From Alphaproteobacteria bacterium (GTDB lineage: Bacteria; Pseudomonadota; Alphaproteobacteria; Sphingomonadales; Sphingomonadaceae), in NCBI GenBank assembly GCA_005883305.1, contig VBAC01000001.1, forward strand, positions 2,480,001 to 2,544,000: a stretch of DNA of 64,000 nucleotides. The letters are read 5' to 3'. Positions 32,351-63,420 of this stretch are shown here, in pieces. Positions within the stretch are counted from its first letter, which is position 1. Each line of letters begins with the position of its first letter. The notes below the pieces were generated by a model that worked only from the letters and a program-made list of their open reading frames with translations, did no database searches and was not told where the DNA came from. Made by a program: the position numbers and the translations under genes.

Positions 32351-32360
32351 TGGTCTCCCG

Positions 32361-40538: not shown

Positions 40539-40550
40539 GGCGCTACCGCC

Positions 40551-40818
40551 TCACAAGTGATTTCGAAACCGTCTATAGCCCTTCGCTCGCAATTCACAGG
40601 CCGGACAGGCATCGCAGCCATAGCCCCAGTCATGCTCGCCGCGCGCGAGCGCCTACATAGCAGGTATGGCTGTGTTCGGCGATCAATTCGACGAGTGGCT
40701 CGCCGCCGAGGCGGGCGGCGAGGCCCCAGGTCGCCGCCTTGTCGCGCCACATCAGCGGGGTGTCGAGGACGAAGCGCTGGTCCATCCCGAGATAGGGCGA
40801 AGCGGCCGATGGCCCAGA
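40551..40818 (-). pseudogene. queC: Remnant of a second queC (7-cyano-7-deazaguanine synthase), 3' end only
   Basis: Read leftward, the sequence encodes [33 protein letters not shown] and, after a frameshift between about 40,640 and 40,660, [20 protein letters not shown] and a stop at 40551. These match the C-terminal third of QueC, including the zinc-binding cysteines, and differ from the intact queC at 57230-57940. The first two-thirds, with the SGGxDS loop, are missing. The break coincides with the left side of the Dpd island, so the island probably replaced or interrupted the original gene. Confidence 0.85.
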
Positions 40819-41186: not shown

Positions 41187-43682
41187 TTGGTCACTTTGAA
41201 ATCCGCTTCCGCCAGCATTGAGCCGTTCGGCCCTCCAGCTGGTGATACTGACTGGGTGGTCGCGGCCATCCAACGAACCGAGACCGCACTGCTCGCGGCT
41301 ACAGCGCCGGCGGATCGGATCGCACTTATTCGCTCATTGGCGCGGTTGCTGGGTGGGCGCCTCGATCTGCAGGCGAGAGATATTGGGCTGTCAGAGGCTG
41401 AATCGGACTTGTTGGATCGCTTTGGTCTCGCGCTGACCAATGAGAGCAAGGCCATCCGGGTTGTGAACGAGGAAGATCTACCCACCGTCGCGGGACTGCC
41501 CGCCGCACTCGTCTTTGACAGTCGGCCGCGGCAGATCTACGAACCCGCCTCTCCCGATGCAGTCCTGCTGCGGCTAACGAACCATGGGCGCTATCGAACG
41601 GCGACGCAGAAAGCGGCGGTTCGCGCCCTCCTCACCCAGCCGCCGGGCTCGGGTCTCATGGTCAGTATGCCGACCGGCTCGGGCAAGAGCCTCCTCTTCC
41701 AGATTGCCGCGGCCTTTGAGCGCGAAACGTTGCCGGGTGCCTGCGCGATCGTCATCACCCCAACGATCGCTCTCGCGCTCGATCATGCTCGTACGCTCTC
41801 CGGCCTGCCAGGCCTTGAAGGCAGCCGCGCGCTTGTGGGCGATACGTCGCCGACCGAAGCCCAGGCGATCATCAACGGTTTTCGCCGCGGCGAGGTGCCC
41901 ATCCTGCTGCTCTCGCCCGAAAAGGCGTTCGCTCCGGCTACCCAGGCGTACCTGATGGAGGCGGCCGCGCCCCATCCAGTCGAATATGGCCTTGAGGCGC
42001 GCCTCACCCATATGTTCGTCGACGAAGCGCATATCATCGAGACTTGGGGACGCAGCTTCCGCCCGGATTTCCAGCGACTGCCGGCTTTGCTCGCCAGGCT
42101 CCGGGGCATAAACCCCGATCTGCGCGCGGTGCTGCTGTCCGCGACATTGTCGGATACCTCTCGCCGCATACTGCGCGACAGCTGGAGGTTCGACGGCGCC
42201 TGGCTGGAGGTCGATGCCCGCACGCCACGTTTCGAGCATGATGTCGTGATCGGACAATTCGGATGGGATCGACAGCGCCAGGCCGCGCTCGACCATGTGA
42301 TCGATCGCGCGCCGCGCCCGCTCATTGTCTACACGACCAAGATCGATGACGCGGCAACATTATGCGCACGCTTGCGCACCGAACTTGGCTATGGCCGGTT
42401 CGCCTTGTTTACCGGCGACACCGGCGCCCATGAGCGCAAGCAGATCGTCGAAGGCTGGGCCGAAGACGAGTATGACATCGTGGTGGCGACCTCGGCGTTC
42501 GGCATGGGCATCGACAAGGCCGATGTTCGATCGATCGTACACGCCTGCCTCCCGGAAGGCCCGGCGCGCTGGTATCAGGAGATTGGCCGTGCCTCGCGGG
42601 ATGGCGGGCAGGGGCTCGCCGCGTGCCTGTTCACCTCAGGCGGTGACGACGACGATGTGAGGCAGGCTTATAGCCTAGCGACCTCGGGCTGGCTGAGCCG
42701 CGAACTCGCCGAGGAGCGCTGGTTGGGGCTGTTGAAGGCCGCGAGCGATCATCGTTGGGAGGGCGCCCGCCGCATCATGTCGCTGAATCTGGACGCGTTC
42801 CGCGAAGGCCTCCGCCCAAAAGCCGGCGACTGGAATCGCGGTTGGAACATGACATTGATCACCTTAATGCAGCGTGCGGGCGTGCTGCAGGTTCTCTCCG
42901 TCGCGGCCGAAGGTGATCAGTCCGAGTTCGTCTGGGACGTCGAGGTGCGTGACCCTCGACTGATGGAGGGCGTTGCCGACGAGATCTGGAATCGGATCAG
43001 CGCGGTGCGCGATGCGGAGATCGGCGAAGTTCGCGCCGGTCTTGACGTCTTCGTCGACGCTATGCGCCACCCCGAGAAGGCGTGCATCACGCGCACAGCC
43101 TTCGAACTTATCGAACCGAATTCCTATGCACCGCCCTGCGGGCGCTGTCCTGCCTGCCGCGCGATGGGTATCGCTCCGCCAGCACGGCTTAGTTCCGCCG
43201 GGCTCGAGAAGGTCTGGCAAACTTCCGGCCCGGCAAGAACCGCTCTGCCCGCGGAGATTTTGCTGATGACACCGACCGATCCGCATTTCGAGCGCGGCTT
43301 TTCAAAGCTGATCGAGACGTTGACGGCGGTAGGGGTGGAGCAGATTGTCGTGCCCCAGACCCTGGCGCATGCCGCCGCCCAACTCATGGCCGGCACATCG
43401 GCACGGCTGGGACTTGTGATGGATATGCGCGAGTGGTCAGGCGATGCAAAGCTCGCGCATCTGCCGAGTGCGGTGCTCCTTCCTGAGGAGAATTGGATTG
43501 CCGAGACGATGCTCGACCGCGTGGCCAGCTTCGGGCGCGAGGCGACGGTACCCCTGCTAGTGGTGGGCCGTCCGGAGCGCCTTGTTCGCGGCCGCAGGCT
43601 TGACCAGACGGTGTCGCGGCACGCGCCTTATTCCGAAGCCACGCTGCGAGAAGTCGCTGCCGATCCGCGGGCGCTCGCATGA
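41187..43682 (+). CDS. dpdF: RecQ-like DNA helicase of the Dpd system (DpdF)
   Basis: An 831-aa superfamily 2 helicase. Motif I MPTGSGKSLLFQI, motif II FVDEAHIIETWGR, motif III LSATLS, motif V GMGIDKADVRSIVH and motif VI QEIGRASRDGG match RecQ-type helicases. A late CGRCPACR pair of cysteines may bind zinc. Its association with DpdG/DpdH and with queCDE/dpdA identifies it as DpdF, a member of the restriction part of the 7-deazaguanine DNA system. The start is uncertain: TTG 41187 opens the frame, and other TTG/GTG codons lie within 70 nt. The stop overlaps dpdG by 4 nt. Confidence 0.82.
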   Translation: MVTLKSASASIEPFGPPAGDTDWVVAAIQRTETALLAATAPADRIALIRSLARLLGGRLDLQARDIGLSEAESDLLDRFGLALTNESKAIRVVNEEDLPTVAGLPAALVFDSRPRQIYEPASPDAVLLRLTNHGRYRTATQKAAVRALLTQPPGSGLMVSMPTGSGKSLLFQIAAAFERETLPGACAIVITPTIALALDHARTLSGLPGLEGSRALVGDTSPTEAQAIINGFRRGEVPILLLSPEKAFAPATQAYLMEAAAPHPVEYGLEARLTHMFVDEAHIIETWGRSFRPDFQRLPALLARLRGINPDLRAVLLSATLSDTSRRILRDSWRFDGAWLEVDARTPRFEHDVVIGQFGWDRQRQAALDHVIDRAPRPLIVYTTKIDDAATLCARLRTELGYGRFALFTGDTGAHERKQIVEGWAEDEYDIVVATSAFGMGIDKADVRSIVHACLPEGPARWYQEIGRASRDGGQGLAACLFTSGGDDDDVRQAYSLATSGWLSRELAEERWLGLLKAASDHRWEGARRIMSLNLDAFREGLRPKAGDWNRGWNMTLITLMQRAGVLQVLSVAAEGDQSEFVWDVEVRDPRLMEGVADEIWNRISAVRDAEIGEVRAGLDVFVDAMRHPEKACITRTAFELIEPNSYAPPCGRCPACRAMGIAPPARLSSAGLEKVWQTSGPARTALPAEILLMTPTDPHFERGFSKLIETLTAVGVEQIVVPQTLAHAAAQLMAGTSARLGLVMDMREWSGDAKLAHLPSAVLLPEENWIAETMLDRVASFGREATVPLLVVGRPERLVRGRRLDQTVSRHAPYSEATLREVAADPRALA

Positions 43683-44572
43683 GCGTGTTATCGAGCCCCC
43701 AAGGGACGCCCGAGCGCGTCTGGTCGCTGGTCGCCGGTCTCCAGGCCTTGGGCGGCGAGACCGATCGCGCGACCTTCGATGCACTGATCAATCCCGGCTA
43801 TGTGAAGGATGGCGCCGAGATCCGCGCCAAGGACACGCTCGCGGCCAATGCCCTGGGCGCGGCATCGAGCCTCGGCCTCGTCCAGTCGGGCCGCGACAAG
43901 GCAGTGCTCGGAGAGGGTGTCGCGATCGCCGACTATGCGGCGCTTGCCGACCATGTTCATGACCGGCTGGCCGCGCTGCCGTCCGGGAATAGCGATTGCG
44001 CGATCCTCGATGCTTATGCCTGGGTGGCGGCCGAGAGCGATCGGCAAAAGGGCCTTGGCTGGATTTACGACTGGGGTCGCGACCAATTTGCTGATGAGGC
44101 CAATAAGTCATTGGTCGGCGAGGACGAGGATGGGCGCCTGATGAACACGACCAAGGTCGTGCCATGGCGCCGCTGGCTCAATTTCCTGGGCCTGGGCGCA
44201 ACTCTCCCGCTCACCAACACGCCCGACTTTCCAACGCCAACGGTGCGGATTGCGCGCGAACTCGAGCGCGCGGGGATCGAACCGGGAAGCGAGCTCACCG
44301 CAGAGGCGTTCCTGACCCTGTTAGCGGGCCGAATGCCCTATCTCGACCGTGGCCGCCTTTTCATCCAGGCATGTCAGCGCATCGGCCATCAATCCTTGCA
44401 GCGCCAACTCTCTCCGCTGCTCAGCGTCGCGCTTCGCGATCTTCATGACGACGACACCGTCAAGCTGCGCTTGAGCGGCGACGCGTCGACGCATGTGCGG
44501 CTCGCGCCCGACCCCGCCCATGCCATGCAGGCCTTCACCGCAGTGAAAATCTTTCCAGAGACGAGCTCATGA
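43679..44572 (+). CDS. dpdG: DpdG-like protein
   Basis: A 297-aa soluble protein of unknown biochemical role, called DpdG from its place between the RecQ-like DpdF and the P-loop DpdH. The N terminus has winged-helix-like features (VWSLVAGLQALGGETDRATF). The middle contains KVVPWRRWLNFLGLG, a tryptophan-rich segment, and the C-terminal part (LRDLHDDDTVKLRLSGDAS) is beta-rich. No catalytic motif was found. ATGA overlaps on both sides (4 nt each) show that dpdF, dpdG and dpdH are translated as a unit. Confidence 0.68.
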   Translation: MSVLSSPQGTPERVWSLVAGLQALGGETDRATFDALINPGYVKDGAEIRAKDTLAANALGAASSLGLVQSGRDKAVLGEGVAIADYAALADHVHDRLAALPSGNSDCAILDAYAWVAAESDRQKGLGWIYDWGRDQFADEANKSLVGEDEDGRLMNTTKVVPWRRWLNFLGLGATLPLTNTPDFPTPTVRIARELERAGIEPGSELTAEAFLTLLAGRMPYLDRGRLFIQACQRIGHQSLQRQLSPLLSVALRDLHDDDTVKLRLSGDASTHVRLAPDPAHAMQAFTAVKIFPETSS

Positions 44573-47500
44573 CCGGGCCGGTCTCCGCCTGTTGGCGCGC
44601 CGACGATGCCCGGTCGATCTTCGTGACCGAGGCGCTCGAAGGCAATGACGCGATCTTTCTTGCGACGCATACGCCGATCGAAGGCTTCGATGTTGCCGGA
44701 CGCGATGCGGGGGAGTTTGCCGGATCCGACGAGCAGGCGGTGCTCGACACCTTGTCGGACGAGACCCGCCAACACGCCTTTTGCGTGGTCCAAGGCGAAC
44801 CTGGCTCCGGAAAGTCGCATCTCATTCGCTGGTTGTCGGTCAATTGGCCACACGCCAACGACATCAAGCTCCTGCTGCGACGGGTCGACGGCAGCCTTGA
44901 AGGCGCTTTGGGCCAGCTCAAGGACCGGCTGCCCGAAGAGTTTCTGCCGCTATTCGACAATCTCGGCCAACGCCAGCGTGCGTCGTCACAGGGACGGGCG
45001 AACATCTTCCTGAGCACGCTGGTCAACACGCTCGAGCCCGGCCATTTCGACGAGCCGCTCCCGGACGAGGGCTGGTGCCGGCAATATCACCCGGCCGAAC
45101 TTCTCGGGACTCCGGCGATCCGCGCCAATTGGAAAGCGCCGTCGCGCATCCTCAATCTGCTCGAGGGCGCCGGTGGCGACCGCAATTCGGCCACGGCCTC
45201 CTTCGATCTCTACGACATCGACGAACTCGCCGCACTCGCCGCTCCCCTCAATGGCTCGGCCGCGATCGCGCACTCACAGGCGCTTGCTCGCAAACTTGTG
45301 CGAGAGGCCGAGGACATCCGAGCCTTTCGTGAGCAGGACTGGTTGCCGGATGAGCTCGCGCAAGAATATCCGGACCGGTTCGAGACGAGCCTCAGGCTGA
45401 TCGACGCGTTGAACCGCCGGCGCAATGACGCGATCCAGAACGTCCTCGGCGTTTCGGCGCAAGGGCTCAAGACGCTGTTTCGCCAGGTCCGCGAAGCCCT
45501 TGCCGAGCGCGGCGGACGGCTGGTGTTGCTGCTCGAGGATATCACCTCCTGGGAGGGCCTAGACGACAGCCTCATCGACGTGCTCGTCTTCAATGCCGGC
45601 GCCAAGGGCGACCAGGACAAGGATGTGTGCCCGCTCATCTCCGTCGTGGGCGTAACGCCGGCTTACTATGAAAAGCTCGCCGCCAATTACAAACAGCGCA
45701 TCACCCACGAGATTTGGCTCGGCCATTCGACGGGCGGGCTTCAGGACGTGGCGACGCTGCGCGACAGCGAGATCCGGCGGCAGTTTGCGACGCGCTATCT
45801 TGCCGCGGTGCGCGCGGGGCCAGCAGCGCTCGAAGCTTGGCTCCTTGCCAATCGCAGCGGTGAAGATGCGCCGCCGCCCAACCCTTGCGACGCCTGTCCA
45901 AGGCAGGACGCGTGCTTTGCGACGTTCGGCGCCGAACATGGTGTCGGACTGTTCCCATTCACCGCTCACGCCCTCGACCGCTTCTTCGAGGCGTTGAAGG
46001 AGAACGACAATGGTCAGACCTGGAAGACGCCGCGTGGCATTCTACAGGCGATCCTCAATCCCAATCTGATCCGGCCCGACACGCTGGCGGCGGGCACCTA
46101 TCCAACCGCGACGGTCGAGCCCGACGTGTTTCGTCAGGATCGCCGATCCAATTTCGCGCTGTCCAATCGCCTCGAGCAATTCGTGGCCAATCGTATCGAC
46201 AGCGGACCGGAGCAGGCGCGCATGCGCCGCGTGCTCAGCTATTGGGCCGACCCAGAACGCACCGACACCACTTTGGTTGATGGGGAGTTCGCCTTTGCCG
46301 GCGCCCGACGAGGGCTCTACGAAGCGTTCGGCCTCCCTTGGCTGGGAGGCGACACAGTCACTAGCGAAGCGACAAGCGCAACGGCTCCCCCGCCGGCGGA
46401 GAACCAGCCGGTCCTGCCGGAATTGCAGGACCCGGAAGAAGAGACGGCGCCGGATACGCCCGTTCCGGGTCGGCCGGACGCGCCCCGACCGGTGCAACCA
46501 TTGGCCAGGGCACCCAAACCGAAGCGGCTGACCCCGAACAAGAGCGAGCTCGAGCAATTGCGCGAGCAGATTCGCAGTTGGGCGGCAGGCGGCACGATCG
46601 ACAATCCAAGCCGCTGGAATCAACTCCTTTATGCGCTCATCGACGGCATCGACGCGCGGCGGCTGGGCGCTCCTGCGGCATTGGTCAAGCGAGTGATCAC
46701 GTCGGAAATGGTCAAGCTCCAGGGGAGCACGAGCGGCGCACGCGACTATCTTGTGATCGATGCCGAGCCTTGGGTGCGCAACGGGCTCGAAGCCTATCTC
46801 TCACTGCGCGCGGACGGCCGCACGTCGGGAGACGAGGCCGATTTCCACCGGCGCAACCTCGCGGCGATGATGCGAGGACTTCAGCGCAGCGCAGCGCAAT
46901 ATCTCGATCGACGGGTTCCCACCGTTGCCGATGGGGCACGCTGGTCGCCGGTCACAACGTTCGCCCAAATCCTTCTCGCGCGGGCCTGGCTTCGCGGCGC
47001 AACCACTGCCGACGCCCCCATCGTCGAACAGATCCGCGCGGTGCTGAGCGATGAGACAGGTCCGGAAAGCGACGTCGCCGGTCGCAGCACGCCATGGCAG
47101 GATTGGCTCAACGCGACCAACAAAGCCCAAGATCCGCTGCGCACCCATTTGCGCACCATGGTCGGCCTTGCCATTTCGGACGGCAGCGGCGGTGCCCCGC
47201 TTACCGATTCGAGTGAGCTCGCCGGCGCGATCGTACGGTTTCGCGAGACCGCGAGTTTCGACCCGTTTCCCGACAGCGACGGGCGTCTTCCGGAGCCCTT
47301 CCGCCGGGCGCGCGAGCTCGCCCAGATGTGGCGCGACAGGCGCTCGCAGATCGAGCGAACGGAATTTGGCCAACTCAGCAATCGCGCGCAGGCGCTTGGC
47401 GATCTGTTGCGCAACAAGAGCGTCGCCGCGCATCTGGAACGGCTCGACCTTTGTATTATCGGAATCTCCGATCTGCTTCCGACCGCCGCCGCGGACCGGG

Positions 47501-47835
47501 TCACGAATTGGCGGATGACCTACACGAGCCTGCAGGCCCGGCTCGAAGATGGGGCTGGGAGGCGAGCCGAGAATTTGATCCTCGCCCTCGAAGCGGACGA
47601 GGTTCCGCCCAAGATGCCGCTCAAGCTCAGCTGGCTGGCGAGCGCGCCGGCGCGCGATCTCGAGGAGCTGCTCTTCGCCGCGCAACTGGGTGAGAAAGTC
47701 GTCGAGGCTTTGCTGGAGCATGCCCGCGACTGCGTGCACGAAGCGAGCGGCACCGGCTCACTGGCGCAAGTCAGGGCGGCCGGCAATGCGCTCCAGGTCG
47801 CCGTTGGCGCGCGAACCGAGGGGACGGTCGCATGA
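44569..47835 (+). CDS. dpdH: DpdH-like P-loop ATPase
   Basis: A 1088-aa protein. Walker A GEPGSGKSH lies at about residues 76-84 and a Walker B-like LVLLLEDITSWEG near residue 325. A cysteine group CDACPRQDACF near residue 440 may bind metal. Between about 600 and 660 there is a Pro/Glu-rich linker, and the remaining 430 residues are helical. The architecture and gene order fit DpdH, a large ATPase of the Dpd restriction arm whose mechanism has not been established. Full length; coupled to neighbours by ATGA overlaps. Confidence 0.72.
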   Translation: MTGPVSACWRADDARSIFVTEALEGNDAIFLATHTPIEGFDVAGRDAGEFAGSDEQAVLDTLSDETRQHAFCVVQGEPGSGKSHLIRWLSVNWPHANDIKLLLRRVDGSLEGALGQLKDRLPEEFLPLFDNLGQRQRASSQGRANIFLSTLVNTLEPGHFDEPLPDEGWCRQYHPAELLGTPAIRANWKAPSRILNLLEGAGGDRNSATASFDLYDIDELAALAAPLNGSAAIAHSQALARKLVREAEDIRAFREQDWLPDELAQEYPDRFETSLRLIDALNRRRNDAIQNVLGVSAQGLKTLFRQVREALAERGGRLVLLLEDITSWEGLDDSLIDVLVFNAGAKGDQDKDVCPLISVVGVTPAYYEKLAANYKQRITHEIWLGHSTGGLQDVATLRDSEIRRQFATRYLAAVRAGPAALEAWLLANRSGEDAPPPNPCDACPRQDACFATFGAEHGVGLFPFTAHALDRFFEALKENDNGQTWKTPRGILQAILNPNLIRPDTLAAGTYPTATVEPDVFRQDRRSNFALSNRLEQFVANRIDSGPEQARMRRVLSYWADPERTDTTLVDGEFAFAGARRGLYEAFGLPWLGGDTVTSEATSATAPPPAENQPVLPELQDPEEETAPDTPVPGRPDAPRPVQPLARAPKPKRLTPNKSELEQLREQIRSWAAGGTIDNPSRWNQLLYALIDGIDARRLGAPAALVKRVITSEMVKLQGSTSGARDYLVIDAEPWVRNGLEAYLSLRADGRTSGDEADFHRRNLAAMMRGLQRSAAQYLDRRVPTVADGARWSPVTTFAQILLARAWLRGATTADAPIVEQIRAVLSDETGPESDVAGRSTPWQDWLNATNKAQDPLRTHLRTMVGLAISDGSGGAPLTDSSELAGAIVRFRETASFDPFPDSDGRLPEPFRRARELAQMWRDRRSQIERTEFGQLSNRAQALGDLLRNKSVAAHLERLDLCIIGISDLLPTAAADRVTNWRMTYTSLQARLEDGAGRRAENLILALEADEVPPKMPLKLSWLASAPARDLEELLFAAQLGEKVVEALLEHARDCVHEASGTGSLAQVRAAGNALQVAVGARTEGTVA

Positions 47836-48530
47836 CCGACCTCCTCGATGACGCCGAAAGCTTGCTGCAGAAACTCCCCGATGCCGTCCAGCGGCGTAAA
47901 TTGGGTGAGCGGCTCAGCCAAGCCGTCCTGGCGCTGCGCAACGCCGAACATCAAGCCGGGCGGATGGCGGCGCTGGTCGAATTGGCCCGCATCACCGAAT
48001 TTGGCGCCACCGCCGAGCAGCGCGTGGTGCTCGACGAGATGGTTGAAACGGCGTGCGAAGTCGGCGAGCAGCTCGAAGCGGCTGAGACTGAAGAGACGCT
48101 GCGCGCCGCGGTCTATGAATATGAGCATACTCTTCCGCCGGCGATCTCCGCGCTCGACCGGCAGCTTCGCGAGCGCTGGAGGGCCGTCTTTGCGGACAAG
48201 TTTCAGCCGTTGGTCGGCCTCGGCCAGCTCTTGAGCTCGATGAATGTGCGCAACGATCTTGGCGGTCGCCTGGCGGAATGCGGACGCAAGGGTCAGGCGG
48301 CCCTCAACCTAGGCTCGGTTGCCGACCTCCTAAAGAGCGTGCGCGAATTGCTCTCCGAACTTGAGATGCTGCAGGCGGAGCGCGCTTCGGAAATCGGAGA
48401 CGACGAGGTTGGTGAATTCATCAACGCGTTGGCGGAGAAACGCGCAACGCTGGCGATGGTGACCGTCAAGGTGCACGAATGGCTAGAAGCCCACCACGCA
48501 CTCGATCGACTCGGGATCAATCCACGCTAG
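47832..48530 (+). CDS. Small helical protein ending the dpdFGH operon (possibly DpdI)
   Basis: A 232-aa, almost entirely alpha-helical protein with long heptad-like stretches (AEQRVVLDEMVETACEVGEQ and LLSELEMLQAERASEIGDDE), suggesting a coiled coil. No catalytic motif was seen. The start overlaps the dpdH stop by 4 nt. The position matches the small gene placed after dpdH in known Dpd clusters, hence the suggestion of DpdI, but no specific motif confirms it. The 3' end overlaps the convergent double-helicase gene by 14 nt. Confidence 0.6.
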   Translation: MTDLLDDAESLLQKLPDAVQRRKLGERLSQAVLALRNAEHQAGRMAALVELARITEFGATAEQRVVLDEMVETACEVGEQLEAAETEETLRAAVYEYEHTLPPAISALDRQLRERWRAVFADKFQPLVGLGQLLSSMNVRNDLGGRLAECGRKGQAALNLGSVADLLKSVRELLSELEMLQAERASEIGDDEVGEFINALAEKRATLAMVTVKVHEWLEAHHALDRLGINPR

Positions 48531-54849: not shown

Positions 54850-57140
54850 GCGGCAACTCCTGCCGCTAGATAGGTCAGGTAGTTCTCCGCCTTGGCTGAG
54901 TTGAGATCGACAAAGGTCTGGTCCAGCCACCAGTCATCTTTACCTGCGCGACGCATCAACTCCTTGAAGGCCGGCCCATCGAAGACGCCCTTGAAGACGC
55001 GCACGCGCAACAAGTCCGGCGTGTCCTGCGGCTTGGGATCGAGCATCTGGCAGGCGAGGCGGGGCCATTGTCGCGGCTCCAGCACGAAATCGGGTTCTCC
55101 GTCACTCAGGACGAGGCCGAAAGCCCCGGCGGACAGATCGGCGTCCATCGCGTCGGGTGGCATCTTGAATAGCATCAGCACATTGCGCTGGCTTGGGTAA
55201 GCGCCAATGAGACGCATCGCGCCGATCGCCCGGCCCGTATCTCGCCGGACTCGTGGGGGCTGGGCCAGCTTGATGAGCGCATCGAGCAAGCCGGAACGGT
55301 TTTCGAGCAACTCGAATGCGCGCAGCACGTCGAGATCGTCGGCCGCCAGCGGATTGAAGGTCGCCTGCAGTCGGAAGGGCGACTTGTTCAACCGCAACAT
55401 GGGCTGGCCGGTGGCTTCGAGGCGGCGTCGATGTTCCGCGCGCAACCACTCGGCAATGTCATGTGTCGTTCGAAGGCGATCCGAGACGTCGGCTCTGACC
55501 TCGTCGATGGCGACGCTACCCCGACGTCCCTCGCGCAAGGCGCGGCTCACTTCGATCGAGAGCAAAGACGAGAAGGGACGAATGAAGGCCTCGGCGGGGT
55601 CGTAGGCACGCGCAATCTTCCCCGCCCTTTCCAGCGCACCCGACACCTGGCGAAGGTCGTAAGACACGGTCACCGGCACTGCGAACAACTGCTCGACAAC
55701 GCTGCGCAGCGCCGTTGCCGGCAAATGCTGCATGCCGCGAAATTCGGGCTCCGGCACGACTTCGTCCGGCGGGAAGAGTCGAACCATATCGAGCAGGCCG
55801 GTCCGCACGCGCGGATCATCGAGGTGTCGACCTACCGCTTCTTGCAGGGCCATCGCTTCAGCTGGTTCGTACAGGAAGATATGCGCGAAGAGGGCGGCGG
55901 GGTCATCGGCGGCAAGGGCGGCATTGTGCGCATCGATTGCCGTAAGATCGGCGACCAACTGCGCGAAGATCCGTACCAATGCATCGGCCTCGCCTTGCCG
56001 GTCAGCGCTCGGGAGCACCTCGATGACTTCGCGCCGCTCTTCGCCCCGAACATAAAGATAGCCCAGGGTGACCAGGCCGTCGTCGACAGGATCATGATCG
56101 GCAATCAGATACAGGCACGCATCGCAGCGCGGAGGCATTAGGAAGCTGTGCGGCTCGGGGCCTGTCCCGATATCATCGTCGCGTAGCGCTTTGGCCCGCG
56201 CGATCAGCGTCTCCGCCCTACGTGCGAGCGACCAGCCGGCTCCGTCCATTTGACCGATGCCGGCACCCATTTCGGCCAGCTGTGCCACAGTCGAGACGCC
56301 GACACGCCGCAGACTGCGTTTCGCTTCATGGCTGAGGCCAGCGACGGCCGAGACATCGCGATCCCGCGCCAGACGATCGGCACTGACTTTTTGAATGCAA
56401 TGCGGAAGATAGCTGCATTGCTCGCATTTGAAGTAGACGTGAAAGAAGGTTTCGTCCTTCTGATGATCGACAGTCTTGTCGGCGATCTGCGGGAGGACAG
56501 TGCCGCAGAAATCCGCGACCAGCCTCGAATAGGGCTCAAGCAGGAAGACGTCGGTCTGCCACCGATCCCCTTCAGCATCGCCATCATCGGGAATGCGCCA
56601 GATCTCTCCGAAGGCATCGACCCGCCCCGCGATTCCGTTCTCCTTTAGGATAGCCTCGAGCAGCAATGCGTAAAAAGCGACCTGCGTCTTATGGAATGCC
56701 CGGGCGCTTCGCGTCGCCTTTATGTCAATCACGCGGAAGACCGGACTGCCCTGCGAGGTGTCGCGGCGGACCAGATCCGCGAAACTGCGTCTTAAGGAGA
56801 GGTTGCCGGAAAGAAATGCGGGTCTAGTTCGTGGCCGAAGCTTTAGCTGGGCTGCATATTCCGCGGCGCCCCTGCCACGGAGAAAGGCGGCGGCAACGTC
56901 GTCGCGGAGGCCATCCGTATCGCCAAGGGAGGGTCGCAACACGCCGGTCTCGCGGGCAAGACGCCGGACCACCCTTTCTTCATAATCGACGCCGAGAACC
57001 GCCCAGGGCTTTTCCCGATCGTCTTTTGCTACTGGCACCGCGGCGAGTTCCGAGGGCTCCATGATTTCGTAGCGAGTCTTGCGCTCACATCGATATTGGA
57101 ACCACGATTTAATCGTGGATCCACTGAGTCCTTTCGCCAT
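54846..57140 (-). CDS. Cas4/RecB-like Fe-S nuclease with RNase H-like domain (TM0106-type N-terminal half)
   Basis: A 764-aa protein. Residues about 1-250 form a PD-(D/E)xK nuclease: FRVIDIKATRS (Asp139, Lys141), a downstream Gln (KTQVAFYALL, Gln153), and four cysteines (Cys18 and CEQCSYLPHC at 239, 242, 248) placed as in Cas4/AddB iron-sulfur nucleases. A helix-hairpin-helix (LRRVGVSTVAQLAEMG) follows, then an RNase H-like region beginning DACLYLIADHD near 335. In TM0106-type proteins these parts are normally fused to a UPF1-like helicase; here that helicase is the N terminus of the next gene, with an ATGA overlap. It replaces the phospholipase-D-like DpdK expected at this position (inference). 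Confidence 0.75.
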   Translation of the reverse strand: MAKGLSGSTIKSWFQYRCERKTRYEIMEPSELAAVPVAKDDREKPWAVLGVDYEERVVRRLARETGVLRPSLGDTDGLRDDVAAAFLRGRGAAEYAAQLKLRPRTRPAFLSGNLSLRRSFADLVRRDTSQGSPVFRVIDIKATRSARAFHKTQVAFYALLLEAILKENGIAGRVDAFGEIWRIPDDGDAEGDRWQTDVFLLEPYSRLVADFCGTVLPQIADKTVDHQKDETFFHVYFKCEQCSYLPHCIQKVSADRLARDRDVSAVAGLSHEAKRSLRRVGVSTVAQLAEMGAGIGQMDGAGWSLARRAETLIARAKALRDDDIGTGPEPHSFLMPPRCDACLYLIADHDPVDDGLVTLGYLYVRGEERREVIEVLPSADRQGEADALVRIFAQLVADLTAIDAHNAALAADDPAALFAHIFLYEPAEAMALQEAVGRHLDDPRVRTGLLDMVRLFPPDEVVPEPEFRGMQHLPATALRSVVEQLFAVPVTVSYDLRQVSGALERAGKIARAYDPAEAFIRPFSSLLSIEVSRALREGRRGSVAIDEVRADVSDRLRTTHDIAEWLRAEHRRRLEATGQPMLRLNKSPFRLQATFNPLAADDLDVLRAFELLENRSGLLDALIKLAQPPRVRRDTGRAIGAMRLIGAYPSQRNVLMLFKMPPDAMDADLSAGAFGLVLSDGEPDFVLEPRQWPRLACQMLDPKPQDTPDLLRVRVFKGVFDGPAFKELMRRAGKDDWWLDQTFVDLNSAKAENYLTYLAAGVAA

Positions 57141-57229
57141 GCCCTCGCCATTCTTCGAGTCGTTTTGAGCCTTAGTCTAACCGCATAGCGCCCGGCGGCG
57201 AAGGCGGCCATTTAGGCGGGTAACTCGCG

Positions 57230-57940
57230 CTAAGCGGCTTTCGCGCCTCGATAACCGTCCCACCCCTTAGCCCGAAGATCGCAGGCGGGACAGGTTCCGC
57301 ACCCAAAACCCCAATCGTGGAGAACGCCGTGATCGCCGCGATAGCATGTATGGGTCTGCACGCGTATCAACTCGACCAGTGCATTTCCGCCGAGTTCCTC
57401 GGCCAGCCGCCAAGTCGCTGTCTTGTCGAGCCACATGAGCGGCGTGTGTAGCACCGAGCGATTGCCCATGCCGAGACTGAGCGTCACCTGCAGAGCCTTG
57501 ATCGTGTCATCGCGGCAGTCGGGATAGCCCGAATAATCGGTCTCGCACATACCACCGATCAAATGTCGCAACTGCCGCCGAGATGCCAAAGCGGCGGCCA
57601 GTGTGAAGAAGAGCAGGTTGCGTCCAGGCACGAAGGTGTTCGGCAATCCGTCGTCGCGAAGAGCTATCTCGGCATCACGCGTTAGTGCCGTTTCGCTGAC
57701 TTGGCCGAGGACGGACAGGTCAAGCATGTGGTCAGGGCCCAGGCGATCGGCCCATTCGGCCCTGATTCCGATCACTTGCTCTCGAAACTGGGAGCGGCAC
57801 GCGAGTTCAACGCGGTGCCGCTGGCTGTAGTCGAACCCGACCGTTTCGACATGGGCGAACCGATCGAGCGCCCAGGCGAGACAGGTGGCGGAATCCTGTC
57901 CGCCTGAGAACAGAACCAGCGCGCGTTCTTCAGCGATCAC
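57230..57940 (-). CDS. queC: 7-cyano-7-deazaguanine (preQ0) synthase
   Basis: A 236-aa ATP-dependent enzyme that turns 7-carboxy-7-deazaguanine into preQ0, the base used by DpdA. The PP-loop ATP site [14 protein letters not shown] is at the N terminus, and the zinc site is CYRGDHG followed by [13 protein letters not shown] at the C terminus. The GTG at 57940 overlaps the queD stop by 4 nt, which sets the start. It differs clearly in sequence from the queC remnant at 40551, so the island brings its own copy. It may also supply queuosine synthesis for the cell now that the other copy is broken (inference). Confidence 0.92.
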
Positions 57941-58311
57941 GCCTCCACCTCTTCGCCCCAATATGAACATGCCTCGCCGCTGCTGTCCCGAAAGACGCTG
58001 ACCTTGGCGAGATTGGCGATTTCCGGTCGAAGCCGCACCCAGATCCAGCGGCAGAGATTCTCCATCGTGGCAGGCCCGAGGTCGTTGATTTCGTCGAGAA
58101 AGCGATGGTCGAGGGCATTGCGGGCATCCGCCATGGTCTGTTCAAGCAGGCCGAGATCGACGATCATGCCGGTCGTCGGATCGGGGCGGCCGCGAACGGT
58201 GATTTCTGCTCGATAGGAATGGCCGTGAATGCGGCGGCTGGACTCGGAATCGATCGAGCGCTCCAGCGTATGGGCAGCGTCGAAGAGGAACTGCTTGCTG
58301 AGCTCGAACAT
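57937..58311 (-). CDS. queD: 6-carboxytetrahydropterin synthase
   Basis: A 124-aa enzyme of the T-fold that converts 7,8-dihydroneopterin triphosphate to 6-carboxytetrahydropterin in preQ0 synthesis. Zinc ligands appear in FDAAHTL and HGHSY, and the catalytic Asp-His in LDHRFLDEI. The cysteine that normally precedes the HGH motif by four residues (C-x3-HGH in E. coli QueD) is a serine here (SRRIHGH). Related QueD-like proteins may use a different residue. The ATG at 58311 shares one base with the queE stop. Middle gene of queE-queD-queC. Confidence 0.88.
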
Positions 58312-58943
58312 CAGCGAATTCCAATCATCTTGTGCGACTGAAGCGAGAGGCGCCAGCGCGGGTTCTCGGTGCAATAGGAGATCGTTGCCGCCAAATTGGC
58401 GACCGCGGTCGGTGAATCCATGGGCTGCAGGAAGAAGTGACGGAATGCCAAGCCTTCGAATTGCTCGGGGCGGGCGGTTTCCTGCGGGTATACCAGCTTC
58501 AGCTCATCGCCTTCGCGCAGCACGAGCTCAGCATCGGCTTTCGGGCTGACGCAGATCCAGTCGAGGCCGGCCGGAGCCGCAATGGTGCCGTTCGTCTCGA
58601 CGCCGACTTCGAACTCGCGGTCGTGTAGGGCGTCGATCAACGCCTCATCCACCTGGAGAAGCGGTTCGCCGCCGGTCAAGACGACGTAGCGTCTCGCGCG
58701 CGATCCGGCCCACTCGGCTTCAATGGCGTCTGCCAGTGCCTCGGCGTCGGCAAAGCGGCTGCCTCCGGTGCCGTCCATGCCCACGAAATCCGTGTCGCAG
58801 AACGTGCATATCGCTGTTGCGCGGTCCTGCTCGCGACCTGACCAAAGATTGCAGCCCGCAAAGCGACAAAAGACAGCGGCGCGTCCAGCTTGGGCGCCCT
58901 CGCCCTGTAGGGTCTTGAAGACCTCCTTGACGGCATATGCCAT
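58311..58943 (-). CDS. queE: 7-carboxy-7-deazaguanine synthase (radical SAM)
   Basis: A 210-aa radical SAM enzyme that contracts 6-carboxytetrahydropterin to 7-carboxy-7-deazaguanine. The cluster-binding cysteines have the CX14CX2C spacing (CNLWSGREQDRATAICTFC), as in the alphaproteobacterial QueE type. TLQGEGAQAGRAAVFCRFAG is the conserved N terminus, and LTGGEPLLQ the SAM-binding GGE motif. It lies one base after the second DpdB-like gene and directly before queD, in one transcript. Confidence 0.92.
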   Translation of the reverse strand: MAYAVKEVFKTLQGEGAQAGRAAVFCRFAGCNLWSGREQDRATAICTFCDTDFVGMDGTGGSRFADAEALADAIEAEWAGSRARRYVVLTGGEPLLQVDEALIDALHDREFEVGVETNGTIAAPAGLDWICVSPKADAELVLREGDELKLVYPQETARPEQFEGLAFRHFFLQPMDSPTAVANLAATISYCTENPRWRLSLQSHKMIGIR

Positions 58944-58944
58944 C

Positions 58945-60027
58945 TCAGCTCACCGCGCCTTCTCGAAGCTGGGCCGACGCGGCTCGTCGCTTCTTGCGCA
59001 AGTCCGACTTCACCAGGTTCACCAGATAGTGCTTGAGAAGGGCGACGTCGCGATTGACGTTCTGGAGCGCATTCCAGCGGCGAATCTCCCCGCCCAACTC
59101 CCATTCGCCTTCGGTCCAGGCGGTCCGGCCCTTGAGGCACTGGAGCCCTATCTGAAATTCGTCGGTGCTTCGCGCGCCGGCGCGCTGTGCCAAGACCTCC
59201 ATCACATCGCCCATGGCCTGAATGCCGGCGCCGTGGAGGAGGCGGGAGGACGATGGTTCTTGGCCGTACCAGGCCTCAGGGAAGACCCGCTTCACGGCCT
59301 CAAAGAAATTGGAGATGAGCCGGACGCATTTGTCCGCTCCCTTGGGTAAATTGACGAGCTCTCGCATGACGCCGTTTGAAAGCGATTCCATGATGATCTT
59401 CTGCATCACGGTGTCGGCGACAATGCCGTCCGGGCAGGTGTGCTGCTTGATATAGCCCTTCAGGGCCGTGTGCTCGAAATTGAGGCGAGCGGTCAGGTCG
59501 GCTGCGGTTGAGCGGCGGCTCAGGCGGGGCGGGAGGTCGTCCACCATCGGCAGCAGTTCGTAGATGAGCGACTTCGGCAAGGGCTTCGTATTGTTGATGA
59601 GGACGAATTGACGGCGCAGTTCTGCCTCGTCGGGGCAAATCAGCGCCGAAATGAAGATTTCAAAATCCCGGTCGATGTCGACGAGGGCCGACAAACGTTG
59701 TTGCCCGTCGACGACGAGACCGGGCGGTCCCTCTCTCACGTCAATCGACAGCATGGCTGACCCATCTTCACGATATTCAACGATGACGTGGTCGATGAAG
59801 GCCACCACAATCGGGTTTGGGAGAACGGCGTTCGGCTTCTCGAGATAGTCGCGGATTTCGCGGATGTGCGCCGCCGCTTGCGGGCGCTGGAAGCCACTGA
59901 TCTCGCCATGCGCGTCGCGGCCGATTCGGTCGATTGCAGCGAAGCGCAACACATCCGCAGCTTTCGCCGCGAAGGTGAGCACCTGATGCTCACTGCTCTG
60001 CCGCGCACAAAGGGCGAGATATTTCAT
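58945..60027 (-). CDS. Second DpdB-like (DGQHR/ParB-like) protein
   Basis: A 360-aa protein with the ParB-like nuclease/ATPase signature LVVDGQQRLSALVDI near residue 105 and QFVLINNTKPLPKSLIYELL shortly after. It aligns along its length with the DpdB gene upstream of dpdA (common blocks: DGQQR, KPLPxxLIxELLP, FPEAW, SRLxHxAGIxAMG). DpdB works with DpdA in inserting preQ0 into DNA. Why two divergent copies flank dpdA is not known. The ATG at 60027 lies within the dpdA 3' end (38-nt overlap); a GTG at 60045 is an alternative. Confidence 0.78.
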   Translation of the reverse strand: MKYLALCARQSSEHQVLTFAAKAADVLRFAAIDRIGRDAHGEISGFQRPQAAAHIREIRDYLEKPNAVLPNPIVVAFIDHVIVEYREDGSAMLSIDVREGPPGLVVDGQQRLSALVDIDRDFEIFISALICPDEAELRRQFVLINNTKPLPKSLIYELLPMVDDLPPRLSRRSTAADLTARLNFEHTALKGYIKQHTCPDGIVADTVMQKIIMESLSNGVMRELVNLPKGADKCVRLISNFFEAVKRVFPEAWYGQEPSSSRLLHGAGIQAMGDVMEVLAQRAGARSTDEFQIGLQCLKGRTAWTEGEWELGGEIRRWNALQNVNRDVALLKHYLVNLVKSDLRKKRRAASAQLREGAVS

Positions 60028-61321
60028 TGGTTCGGATGACAGCACGCTTCAGGTCCAATCGTTCGATATGGTCTTTGTAGATTGCGAGGTTGTGGATGCC
60101 GCGCCGCTTGTTGCGGTTGCTTCCACGGAAGATAATGACCTCGATCGACGCGTCCGCGCAGATTGCGCACGGACATTGTCGCCAAGGACGTTCAAGGAGA
60201 GTCTCGCGATAGCGCCGGGCGAGGCGCGCGAGGGTCGGACTATCGCTGCAGTCTTCGTAAGGCTTCTCTTCGAAGAGCGGTGCGCTGTAGACGAGCACAT
60301 GGTGCAGGGTCTCCTCAAGGTCGGCTGCGCCCCGGTCGAAGGCGCGTAGCGACCCAAGCGCTGCGCTCTCCATGCGCACCAGATCCTCGGATCTGAACAC
60401 GCCTTTCTTCACCGATCGCTGCAACTTGGGGTTCTCGATCGCCTGAGGGACGCGGATCGAGGTGAAGTAGCGCAACGCCAGCCCGTCCCCCGGCAGATAA
60501 TAATTTTGCTTGGCGTCCTTGAACGCGCGGATCAGCGGAGATGTCGTATCGAAGCTCGCGATGTCGTAACCATGGAAGCTGTCGATATCATCGGCTTTGG
60601 CAAAGCCAAGGATATGCATCCGGGTCGAGGCCGGGATGGCGCCGCGGATCGCTTCCAAGCATAGTTTGATCTCGGGCGATTTCAACGGAACCATCCCGCC
60701 GATTGCGAGGTAGCCATAACCCATTGCAACCAGCCGGCGGGCCGCTTCCGCCATGCTACCCGGAGACCAGCCCTGGATCACGCCAAGCGGGGTAAAATCG
60801 GCGTCCATCGCGATCGACTCACGGCGGAACCCGTCCGCATTCTCGAGCGTGATCTCGAAACGGTGTCGGGCGTCTTGGGAGCCGCCTTCCAATCCCACGC
60901 CGGCGGGGTCGAAGTCGAAGATGATATGATCCACGGAGCAGCCATGGGTGAAGCCGCATTCATCGTAGAATTCGGCCATTTCCGCGGGCGTGTAGGGGGG
61001 CCGATCCTCCTGGACGTAAGTGAACGCGCCGCAATCTCCGAAGATATCGAGATGTGCAAATTCCGGTTTGTCGAGGCGAAGGAATTTGCGCGCGCCGACC
61101 AGGGCGAAGCGGCGCGCCTGGCTCGCCGTATACTTGCCTTTGACCCGGTGATCCCCAACAATCCCGCGCGACACCAGCACGCCGTCATAGGGCGCATAGC
61201 CCAGGATCTCATGCGGATAGGCGTCATCCCAATAGGGCTGGCGCCCCGCTGGGCTGCGATCAGCAAGGAAATCGAACGCGGGATCCACATAGTCGAGGCT
61301 GTCGGCGAAGATGAACTTCAT
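59990..61321 (-). CDS. dpdA: DNA-guanine transglycosylase (TGT-like) DpdA
   Basis: A 443-aa homologue of tRNA-guanine transglycosylase that exchanges guanine in DNA for preQ0. The substrate-binding motif is seen as DIFGDCGAFTYV (about 92-103, the D-S/C-G-A region), and the barrel contains HIIFDFDPAGVG and GYGYLAIGGMVPL, the queuine-site glycines. The C-terminal zinc ligands are CPCAICAD plus a downstream histidine (RGIHNLAIY). Compared with tRNA TGT it lacks extra RNA-binding features, as expected for DpdA. The ATG at 61321 overlaps the DpdB stop by 4 nt; a longer frame to 61453 lies inside the dpdB gene. Confidence 0.9.
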   Translation of the reverse strand: MKFIFADSLDYVDPAFDFLADRSPAGRQPYWDDAYPHEILGYAPYDGVLVSRGIVGDHRVKGKYTASQARRFALVGARKFLRLDKPEFAHLDIFGDCGAFTYVQEDRPPYTPAEMAEFYDECGFTHGCSVDHIIFDFDPAGVGLEGGSQDARHRFEITLENADGFRRESIAMDADFTPLGVIQGWSPGSMAEAARRLVAMGYGYLAIGGMVPLKSPEIKLCLEAIRGAIPASTRMHILGFAKADDIDSFHGYDIASFDTTSPLIRAFKDAKQNYYLPGDGLALRYFTSIRVPQAIENPKLQRSVKKGVFRSEDLVRMESAALGSLRAFDRGAADLEETLHHVLVYSAPLFEEKPYEDCSDSPTLARLARRYRETLLERPWRQCPCAICADASIEVIIFRGSNRNKRRGIHNLAIYKDHIERLDLKRAVIRTNEISRPLCAAEQ

Positions 61322-62439
61322 GACGCCGCCTTCGCCAGATCGCGTTCTAGGTGGAGGAGGTGTTCGGTGAGTTTGGTGATGTGCTGCGAGGTCGACTGGA
61401 TCTCGTTCCAGCCAAGGCCAAGCCCGTCCCAGCGACCGCCGGTCCAGTGGCAATGCGGAGCAATCCGTTTCAGCATCTGACTGACGGCACCAGCCCGGTC
61501 CGCACTAGCGTCGGCGCGCAGGATGATCTGGTCCATGAGTGCGCCCATGGCGCGAATACCCGCCGAGTGCATGAGCCGGCTCTGGGTCGCAGGCTTGCCC
61601 CAGGCCTCGGGAAAAGTGTCGCGCACCGCCCGCCAATAAATGAGCAGCGCCTCGTACATCGCCTCAGTGTCGGCGCCGTCACCGTTACGCCTATATTGGC
61701 CCAAAGCCCCCATGGCCGATCGTAGGCTGAGACGCATGATTTCGATCAGAGCCGCATCGGTGATGATGCCGCCTTTGGCCTTAGCGTTCGACTCCCGCCG
61801 GATAAGGCCATGGAATGGCGAAGCCGGGTCGTTATTGAGCGCCTCGCACAAGGCGCTGGGCAGCCGACGCGCGGCAAGGTCGCGGGGCAGCAGAACGCTA
61901 ACCTCTGGGAGCAGTTCGTTGATCAGCCTTGTCGGCAGAGGCTTGGCCTTGTTGACCAATATGAACTGCTCGCGCTGCGTTTCCAGTTCCGCCGAGACAA
62001 AGCCGACGACCGGGACGGCGATCGACCTGTCCTTGGCTTGGGCGAGCGCGAGCGAGCGCTGCTGCCCATCGACGATCCAGGCTGCGCGCCGTCCTTCCGG
62101 ATAGATCGGGATGGTCAGCGTGCCGGCGTCGCCGACGTCGCAGATGTTACCGGGCTTGCGCCCGCGGGCCGACGCGAACTCGATCTCGGGCGCCATCGCC
62201 AGGATGATCGCATTGGGGAACAGCACTGGGCCGCTGTCGAGGAAGGCGGTGATCGCATTGACGTGCTGGCGGATCTCACCCCGCTGAAAACCCTTCAGCT
62301 CTTTGTCATCGCGCTGAATGCGGCTGATGTCGGCAATCCGCGTGATGTCTGAGCCGAGCAAGAAGAAGGCGAAGACGTCCGTCCCCTTTCCCTGCGCGGC
62401 GCGCACCGCGCGCACCGAAAGATACTCGCGTCGCGTCAT
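61318..62439 (-). CDS. dpdB: DpdB (DGQHR/ParB-like) protein
   Basis: A 373-aa protein that acts with DpdA in preQ0 insertion; DpdB homologues are ParB-like ATPase/DNA-nicking proteins. The signature AAWIVDGQQRSLALAQAK lies near residue 125, followed by QFILVNKAKPLPTRLINELL. The rest is mostly helical. Its first codon overlaps the dpdC stop and its stop overlaps the dpdA start, each by 4 nt. That continuous coupling with dpdA makes this copy the better candidate for the orthodox DpdB. Confidence 0.86.
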   Translation of the reverse strand: MTRREYLSVRAVRAAQGKGTDVFAFFLLGSDITRIADISRIQRDDKELKGFQRGEIRQHVNAITAFLDSGPVLFPNAIILAMAPEIEFASARGRKPGNICDVGDAGTLTIPIYPEGRRAAWIVDGQQRSLALAQAKDRSIAVPVVGFVSAELETQREQFILVNKAKPLPTRLINELLPEVSVLLPRDLAARRLPSALCEALNNDPASPFHGLIRRESNAKAKGGIITDAALIEIMRLSLRSAMGALGQYRRNGDGADTEAMYEALLIYWRAVRDTFPEAWGKPATQSRLMHSAGIRAMGALMDQIILRADASADRAGAVSQMLKRIAPHCHWTGGRWDGLGLGWNEIQSTSQHITKLTEHLLHLERDLAKAAS

Positions 62440-63356
62440 GCTCGTTCGGTCCGCACTTCACGGGCAAGCGTAGCGAAGCGCCCCTGCTCGCAGGCGATAT
62501 GGAGCTGATCGCGAAAGAGACGAAGCAGGCGGGAAGAGCTGCCGCCAGCAGCCTCCCAATGCTGATGGAGCAGTGCCCGCAATGACTCGTCGTCATGCCG
62601 CGCGCGCGCAACGCGCGCCGGCGCTTGCCAGCCTTGGGTCGCGCGGCGAACGGCATCCGCATGCTCCGCCTCCGAGCGTCGGTCGTCCGGCACCGCGATC
62701 GCCTGCGCGAAATGATGGAGGGCACGGCTGGCAAAGTCGCTGCGGGTACCGCGGATCGGACTGTCGGCTCCCTCGAGCCGGTCATCATAAGGCATGACAC
62801 AGGCCCGCAATTGCGGCGCGATTCGCTCAAGCGGCGCGCCAGTGAACAGGCGCAATCGGCCGCGCGCCTGGTCGTCAAGACCGACGAGATCGGCCTCGAT
62901 CATCCCGATATAGCTCTCCGAAAGCGCCGCGCAGACCAAGCCTCTCGAAGATGCGACGGACGCGGCCAACGAAACCGCGAATGGCGATGCCTGGTTGATC
63001 TGTCGCCACCAGGCGGCCGCCGAAAAGCCCTCGCCAACTCGGTCCGCGATGCTGTCGTGGGCATTGGCAAGGATGGTGCAGGCGTACGACGGCACGGTCG
63101 CGGATTCGCGGACCAGACCCAAGCCCGCTGAGGCCACGAACAGTTCGGCACCGAGTCGGCGGGCGGCAAGCACGGCTTCCTGAAAGCCGCGACCGGCATA
63201 GAGATCTGTCACGGGACGCAGCGCCTTTTCGGAGGCGAGCCGACGGGTCCATTCGGCAACGAGCTTGTCCCGATCCGCATACGGGAGCGAGGCGACGTGG
63301 AGTTTCGCGGCGATCGGCTGACGCTTCCGATTGGTGCAGGTTGTGATCACTAGCAT
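62436..63356 (-). CDS. dpdC: DpdC-like protein (preQ0-in-DNA to amido-deazaguanine step)
   Basis: A 306-aa protein opening with MLVITTCTNRKR and containing ELFVASAGLGLV near residue 80. These are features of the deazaguanine-cluster proteins that accompany DpdA/DpdB. DpdC hydrolyses the nitrile of preQ0 in DNA to 2'-deoxy-7-amido-7-deazaguanosine. Assignment rests on these motifs and on the gene order dpdC-dpdB-dpdA. The start at 63356 brings the conserved strand to the N terminus; an in-frame ATG at 63395 would add 13 residues, and neither has a good Shine-Dalgarno. First gene of the minus-strand operon. Confidence 0.72.
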   Translation of the reverse strand: MLVITTCTNRKRQPIAAKLHVASLPYADRDKLVAEWTRRLASEKALRPVTDLYAGRGFQEAVLAARRLGAELFVASAGLGLVRESATVPSYACTILANAHDSIADRVGEGFSAAAWWRQINQASPFAVSLAASVASSRGLVCAALSESYIGMIEADLVGLDDQARGRLRLFTGAPLERIAPQLRACVMPYDDRLEGADSPIRGTRSDFASRALHHFAQAIAVPDDRRSEAEHADAVRRATQGWQAPARVARARHDDESLRALLHQHWEAAGGSSSRLLRLFRDQLHIACEQGRFATLAREVRTERA

Positions 63357-63420
63357 GACAAAATACAGCGTCCCCGCCCACTCTTCGAGGCGCATTTATT
63401 ATTATCCCGTGTCGGCAGGC

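Follow-up and report, generated by a model that had tools for sequence, protein, structure and literature searches.

A Dpd island in two converging arms

The stretch considered here is a window of 64,000 nucleotides from contig VBAC01000001.1 of an alphaproteobacterium of the Sphingomonadaceae, whose genome measures 3.03 Mb. Between positions 41187 and 63395 (all coordinates are positions in this window unless stated otherwise), it carries an island of the Dpd type, a modification-restriction system based on 7-deazaguanine in DNA. Thirteen long open frames were assigned in this region with the Pfam, PADLOC and NCBIfam profiles, and all of them are open. The minus arm reads dpdC, dpdB1, dpdA, dpdB2, queE, queD, queC, a nuclease gene and dpdJ; the plus arm, which converges on it, reads dpdF, dpdG, dpdH and dpdI. 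An earlier note, made from the sequence alone, had proposed a Dpd island in two converging arms at this place, and the three profile collections bear this out. The genes it named (queE, queD, queC, dpdA, dpdB, dpdC, dpdF, dpdG and dpdH) are all present as open frames with family matches. The comparison of each protein with the Dpd families, which it had suggested as a check, supports the Dpd assignment and adds a divergent dpdI and dpdJ, which it had not named.

The product of dpdA (59990-61321), a DNA guanine transglycosylase, scores 544 bits with the NCBIfam model (cut-off 200) and 540 bits with that of PADLOC. Its start was placed at 61321 (MKFIFADS) and not at the TTG at 61453, and it is the single match to the DpdA profile in the genome. 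The Cys and His residues that we take to form its zinc site are invariant in 25 of 25 sequences. On either side of dpdA lie dpdB1 (61318-62439; 458 bits with NCBIfam DpdB) and a second DpdB gene, dpdB2 (58945-60027, with a likely start at the ATG at 60027; 371 bits), both above the cut-off of 300; PADLOC scores the two copies at 447 and 404 bits. The DGQQR motif is kept in 23 of 23 aligned sequences, in the dpdB1 and the dpdB2 set alike. The first gene of the arm, dpdC (62436-63395), matches the PADLOC model PDLC02815 with 348.7 bits and DUF6884 weakly; NCBIfam profiles gave no match with its product. The preQ0 genes are queE, of the Cx14CxxC type (58311-58943; TIGR04508, 359.5 bits, cut-off 240), queD (57937-58311; PTPS, 108 bits for a cut-off of 22; TIGR03367, 74.8 bits, below the cut-off of 89.25) and queC, with a likely GTG start (57230-57940; TIGR00364, 194 bits, cut-off 150). 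Besides the island genes, the genome contains folE, encoding GTP cyclohydrolase I, and a second queC. According to PMC11888242 and PMC12839542, FolE, QueD, QueE and QueC make preQ0, DpdA and DpdB insert it into DNA, and the DpdC family converts the cyano base into the amido base.

On the restriction side, dpdF (41187-43682, start codon uncertain) encodes a RecQ-like superfamily 2 (SF2) helicase (PADLOC PDLC02862, 962 bits; NCBIfam, 455 bits, below the cut-off of 550), dpdG (43679-44572) a divergent DpdG (NCBIfam, 58.4 bits, below 80), dpdH (44569-47835) a P-loop ATPase (PDLC02884, 1322 bits; NCBIfam, 272 bits, below 450) and dpdI (47832-48530) a divergent DpdI (NCBIfam, 24.8 bits, E 1.9e-5, below 150). 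The minus-strand dpdJ (48517-54849, start ATG at 54849) encodes 2110 residues, with an N-terminal DNA2-like superfamily 1 (SF1) helicase, a YprA-type SF2 helicase core and a CxxxCxxC motif near its C-terminus. It scores 3301 bits over its full length with PADLOC PDLC02895, and 325 bits with NCBIfam DpdJ, below the cut-off of 800. DpdF, DpdH and DpdJ are each covered almost end to end by one PADLOC model. Between queC and dpdJ lies the gene of a 764-residue PD-(D/E)XK nuclease of the RecB/TM0106 type (54846-57140, minus strand; TIGR03491, 38.9 bits, below the cut-off of 97.45). An Rfam scan of 34000-64000 gave no match.

It had been stated that nearly every junction is a 4-nucleotide overlap. 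The tight coupling stands, but "nearly every" is overstated since, read from the DNA, such overlaps occur at seven of the eleven same-strand junctions: six are ATGA (dpdF/dpdG, dpdG/dpdH, dpdH/dpdI, dpdC/dpdB1, dpdB1/dpdA and nuclease/dpdJ) and one is GTGA (queD/queC). At the remaining four, dpdA and dpdB2 overlap by 38 nucleotides, one nucleotide separates dpdB2 from queE, queE and queD share one (TGATG, with ATG the start of queD), and 89 nucleotides lie between queC and the nuclease gene. Where the two arms meet, dpdI and dpdJ share 14 nucleotides at their 3' ends.

The nuclease and the helicase fused to DpdJ

The nuclease is a distant relative of the TM0106 proteins; with its score below the TIGR03491 cut-off, it is not classed as a member of that family. 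All 30 of 30 aligned nuclease sequences match the model at E 1e-3. Motifs were counted over the rows of a 36-sequence alignment that have a residue at the site in question (34 to 35). D122 is invariant in 34 of 34, and D139, K141, Q153, Y157, C18, C239, C242 and C248 in 35 of 35. We read D122, D139-x-K141, Q153 and Y157 as a RecB/Cas4-type active site, and the four cysteines as ligands of an iron-sulfur cluster, the C-x2-C-x5-C spacing being similar to that of the iron-sulfur motif of DNA2, AddB and Cas4.

The front of DpdJ consists of about 500 residues of SF1 helicase, after which the protein continues as an ordinary DpdJ. The top match of the SF1 part among Protein Data Bank (PDB) sequences is the DNA2 helicase domain (E 2.9e-14). 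Both partners can be placed on a single TM0106 protein, that of Rhizobium sp. NZLR1: the nuclease aligns to its residues 50-397 (hhalign, probability 88%, E 3.5e-6) and the SF1 part matches its far end (tblastn, 26% identity, E 7e-12). Since the two halves are collinear on one protein, the two genes look like one nuclease-helicase that has been split. A TM0106/DNA2-like enzyme thus seems, from these alignments, to be distributed over two genes, its helicase half being carried by DpdJ. The Rhizobium protein has the same nuclease motifs, the same cysteine cluster and the same order of nuclease and SF1 helicase, but TM0106 proteins are one chain. Eukaryotic DNA2 resembles the SF1 part in its helicase domain, whereas the version in the window is split over two proteins within a restriction island. 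The possibility that the fused DpdJ results from the artefactual loss of a stop codon was rejected, the SF1 part and the DpdJ core forming one open frame in 33 loci. PADLOC itself holds a DpdJ model of the fused length (PDLC02895), so that such proteins are already counted as DpdJ.

This arrangement is found at other places. A scan of named-species genomes gave 33 nuclease loci, judging by record titles mostly in alphaproteobacteria but also in a myxobacterium and in metagenome-assembled genomes of Nitrococcus, UBP9 and Cyclobacteriaceae. A tblastn search of 72,556 PLSDB plasmid records found the nuclease in four; with the window, the total is 38. The fused DpdJ is matched by 33 plasmid records, with a coverage of at least 80% only in the same four that carry the nuclease. 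Among 398 genomes drawn from the phylum, only the window's own has the nuclease, and three have DpdA. Of the 36 loci that extend beyond the nuclease (L042 and L045 end within it), 35 have an SF1 helicase downstream, and in 33 this helicase runs into the DpdJ core as a single open frame (L039 ends ahead of that core). One locus with broken frames, L041, is included in the 35 of 36 and was excluded from the junctions, trees and motif counts. The nuclease/dpdJ junction is a 4-nucleotide overlap in 28 of 34 measured loci, and of the 33 loci where dpdH is visible, 32 have it on the opposite strand and one, L033, has it collinear. As judged from sequence, islands with the nuclease and the SF1-DpdJ fusion are a conserved subtype that has been little noticed.

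Missing genes, exchange of modules and a candidate mechanism

In the whole genome of the window, dpdD, dpdE and dpdK have no match above the family cut-offs; the DpdE profile gives three weak matches of at most 41.6 bits, for a cut-off of 500. The same genes were sought in 36 nuclease-bearing genomes or records (L041, and L044 with its truncated nuclease, being excluded) and in eight plasmids with an ordinary DpdJ. The latter (L011, L012 and L047 to L052) are the DpdJ tblastn matches H9 to H16; the haloarchaeal L053 and other haloarchaeal matches to the DpdJ core were left out. DpdK is above its cut-off in none of the 36, versus five of the eight plasmids, and at E 1e-5 in one of the 36 (27.9 bits within a 776-residue frame) versus all eight. 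For DpdD, no nuclease-bearing genome or record reaches the cut-off, and at E 1e-5 the counts are 0/36 versus 5/8. DpdE is above its cut-off in 0/36 versus 5/8; its profile also matches in 14 of 14 control genomes, so that weaker, widespread DpdE matches say little. DpdA is present in 33 of the 36, the other three nuclease loci lying on contigs of 4-8 kb. Among the eight plasmids, it is missing from that of Nostoc and weak in that of Deinococcus. A C-terminal CxxxCxxC is found in 31 of 31 complete DpdJs of the nuclease subtype; it is absent from the six long DpdJs of L047 to L052, present in L011, and absent from the short frames of L012 and L053.

Canonical Dpd islands, for which those of Enterobacter (L047), Agrobacterium (L048), Nostoc (L049) and Shinella (L052) served as comparison, share with the window dpdA, dpdB and dpdC, the preQ0 genes and dpdF to dpdJ. 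In the window, these are DpdA, two DpdB, DpdC, queC, queD and queE (with folE elsewhere in the genome), and dpdF to dpdJ. The island differs from the full canonical set (dpdA to dpdC plus dpdD to dpdK) in having no DpdD, DpdE or DpdK over the cut-off, a RecB-type nuclease, and an extra SF1 part on DpdJ. The variant content described in the earlier note (no DpdD or DpdE, an extra DpdB, a nuclease without a phospholipase D (PLD)-type DpdK) thus holds at profile cut-offs. Its description of the island as complete-looking is right for modification; restriction is complete only as a different subtype. The genes dpdD, dpdE and dpdK are variable among published islands. In PMC11888242, a 2025 preprint, dpdB is the gene with the most extra copies and dpdD is among the two genes least often retained, so that the extra DpdB and the missing DpdD are less novel than had been implied. 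Another system, BRIGADE, shares the deazaguanine genes and a YprA helicase with the island but is archaeal and usually has two YprA helicases (text portions of PMC12458937, bioRxiv 2025); the description of BRIGADE in those portions and in the figure legends contains no mention of an SF1-DpdJ fusion. The archaeal BRIGADE systems have a lookalike in the Halobaculum plasmid L053, where two genes for large DEAD/DEAH helicases occur with genes for PD-(D/E)XK nucleases.

The modification and restriction genes do not share one history. Over the 17 loci having both genes of a pair, pairwise identities correlate at 0.93-0.97 among dpdA, dpdB1 and dpdB2 and at 0.97 between the nuclease and the DpdJ core, but only at 0.49-0.57 across the two sets. 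The nuclease and DpdA trees disagree: the approximately unbiased (AU) test rejects for each a clade backed by the other, with p values of 1.3e-6 and 6.3e-5 and, in one further test, 3.8e-67, the groups having been chosen after the trees were seen and with long-branch warnings for both trees. Loci L023 and L036 have DpdA proteins 97.6% identical and DpdJ cores only 51% identical. In the Shinella plasmid, a two-dpdB modification module of the same kind (DpdA 67% identical) stands beside dpdE, dpdK and dpdD. On these comparisons, the modification and restriction modules are each coherent within and reassort against each other.

The island probably represents a distinct Dpd restriction subtype, in which DNA would be marked by the preQ0 enzymes and DpdA to DpdC, and cut by the RecB-type nuclease with the SF1 helicase of DpdJ instead of by DpdK. 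FolE, encoded elsewhere in the genome, would make preQ0 together with QueD, QueE and QueC. DpdA, with one or both DpdB proteins, would insert it into the cell's DNA, and DpdC would turn the inserted preQ0 into the amido base. Recognition and opening of unmarked DNA would fall to the motors DpdF, DpdH and DpdJ, acting with DpdG and DpdI, and cutting to the nuclease with the iron-sulfur-like motif instead of a PLD-type DpdK. The nuclease may dock on the SF1 domain at the front of DpdJ, rebuilding a DNA2/TM0106-like nuclease-helicase inside the Dpd machine. We infer the docking, the substrate, the identity of the modified base and the step in which unmarked DNA is cut. The gene content, the intact motifs, the absence of DpdK and the fact that nuclease and fused DpdJ occur and evolve together are direct observations.

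Several results weigh against a distinct subtype with a DNA2-like cutter. Foldseek matches of the nuclease model (mean pLDDT 83) are weak: among 468, only the best, MGME1 (E 9.6e-4, TMt 0.43), does not exceed E 0.001, and the nuclease profile found no match among PDB sequences at E 1. All five of DpdF to DpdJ fall under the NCBIfam curated cut-offs, DpdG and DpdI being the most divergent. Strong DpdE-like matches (333-384 bits) are present in four of the 36 nuclease-bearing genomes, on the dpdA contig in three and on another contig in that of L035; loss of DpdE was therefore rejected as a definition of the subtype (L034, L035, L037 and L038 have such matches). The species-genome scan relied on two short peptide patterns, so that relatives of the nuclease in other contexts may be missed. 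Finally, L044, in Devosia sp. ZB163, has a truncated nuclease without a fused DpdJ. In that genome, the truncated nuclease and a dpdH fragment lie at a second site, and a fuller island (L028) is also present.

There is a small chance that the nuclease and the SF1 helicase serve in repair or end processing of the island's modified DNA, restriction being carried out by another part or lost. Repair or end processing is the usual role of DNA2, MGME1 and RecB-type nucleases, and the matches of the SF1 part and of the nuclease model to DNA2 and MGME1 count in favour of such a role. It fits poorly with the absence of DpdK over the cut-off from all 36 genomes or records, with a helicase in frame with DpdJ in 33 loci and a 4-nucleotide overlap with the nuclease gene in 28 of 34, and with a nuclease-helicase pair whose variation follows that of DpdJ, not that of the modification genes. 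It is improbable that the island is decayed or serves modification only, its marks protecting from other enzymes while the restriction genes stay idle: over the 20 kb viewed, a Sinorhizobium americanum locus has a modification operon but lacks restriction genes, and a queC remnant (see below) shows past rearrangement of the present locus, but the restriction frames are open and the helicase and nuclease motifs intact and conserved. A BRIGADE-type hybrid can practically be dismissed: BRIGADE combines a deazaguanine cluster with YprA helicases and now and then has a PD-(D/E)xK nuclease in place of PLD, but it is reported, in the same portions of PMC12458937, from halophilic archaea only and usually with two YprA helicases, whereas one YprA-type helicase was recognised here among the island proteins, to which that search was confined, the restriction genes match DpdF, DpdG, DpdH, DpdI and DpdJ, and the genomes carrying the same module are, judging by record titles, mostly alphaproteobacteria.

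A probable left extension and the surroundings

The limits 41187-63395 are right for the genes listed, but they omit a probable left extension, as gene order here and in related islands suggests that the island continues over 38764-40791. On the minus strand, this segment contains a frameshifted remnant of a second queC (40565-40791; QueC profile, 27.3 bits at 40645-40791, readable in two frames), a Pycsar-TM-like membrane protein gene (39552-40538; PADLOC PycTM model, 27 bits) and, paired with it, the gene of a HAD-type phosphatase (38764-39555; PF00702, 65 bits). The longer piece of the remnant is 70% identical to the queC of L013 but only 60% to the island queC. As it is nearer to the queC of several other islands than to that gene, the idea that it arose as a recent copy of the island queC was rejected. 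The PycTM model is matched at E 0.01 by 10 of 10 aligned homologs of the membrane protein, whose structure model has a mean pLDDT of 61. Unlike Pycsar effectors, the window gene scores weakly with this model and is paired with a HAD phosphatase gene; no pyrimidine cyclase was recognised among the neighbouring open reading frames scanned, no genome-wide search having been made.

The PycTM-HAD pair follows queC, either immediately or with a VUT-family gene in between, in seven nuclease-type loci (L018, L021, L022, L023, L024, L036 and L045), and has the same queC-side placement in Agrobacterium (L048), Sinorhizobium americanum (L054), Bradyrhizobium 41S5 (L055) and Rhizobium WYJ-E13 (L058). It is near the nuclease gene in L025, and L033 has the HAD gene without a PycTM match. 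These orders could reflect an insertion of the restriction module between queC and the pair. The PycTM-like gene is present in 11 of the 36 nuclease-bearing genomes or records, always on the dpdA contig (in G404, as a piece at the contig edge), and in the 398-genome draw nowhere but in the window's genome. In PLSDB, all four records with this gene have it inside a Dpd modification operon, so that a chance neighbour was rejected. The HAD family is wider, with six PLSDB records, one without Dpd genes in the 16 kb viewed and one from Vibrio. The nuclease, the SF1-DpdJ fusion and the PycTM-HAD pair appear as parts of Dpd islands in none of the titles and abstract openings among the matches listed from the open-licence literature. 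The fusion of SF1 to DpdJ, its pairing with the nuclease, the reassortment of modules and the PycTM-HAD pair are the distinctive features that the earlier note had missed.

Related plasmids show other combinations. In Sinorhizobium americanum, the modification operon without restriction genes mentioned above is accompanied by VUT, PycTM-like and HAD genes. On a Bradyrhizobium sp. 41S5 plasmid (L057:19016-24593, L055), a Dpd modification operon with the PycTM-HAD pair adjoins genes for a UvrD-type helicase and a PD-(D/E)XK nuclease, together with genes for one protein distantly like DpdB and one weakly like HNH proteins; these may make up another restriction set.

To the right of the island, about 0.9 kb from the dpdC start, begins the gene of a large serine recombinase with Resolvase and Recombinase domains (4268-6274 of L060, a stretch of the same genome). 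Further right are a terminase gene, the gene of an N6/N4 methylase that matches ParB_N weakly, and a tRNA-Ser; with these neighbours, the island may be mobile or lie in prophage remains. Some 3-7 kb right of the window end, a HamA-family protein (PF08878) adjoins a 1156-residue DEAD helicase (L060:6685-10879), likely a Hachiman defence system beside the Dpd island. To the left, 29336-37242 carries in a row, on the minus strand, genes for a radical SAM protein, a family-5 solute-binding protein, a sigma-54-interaction-domain protein and ABC transporter components, and 27901-29319 encodes a DUF4062 domain fused to a methyltransferase domain.

A more far-reaching proposal, which we put forward tentatively and regard as rather unlikely, is that these islands form a separate class of Dpd immunity: the free-standing nuclease and the helicase joined to DpdJ would together make up a DNA2-like cutter, whole restriction modules would be swapped between lineages under a shared mark, and the PycTM/HAD proteins, tied to the modification operon, would form a second layer at the membrane that kills or arrests the cell when something interferes with the mark or its precursor. 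The PycTM-like membrane protein and the HAD phosphatase are a possible further layer of the system. The recognisably different nuclease makes the proposed cutter of this subtype directly testable through its metal-binding residues. Finally, the results suggest that mark and cutter are exchangeable modules, so that nucleases of at least two unrelated designs may rely on a single deazaguanine mark.

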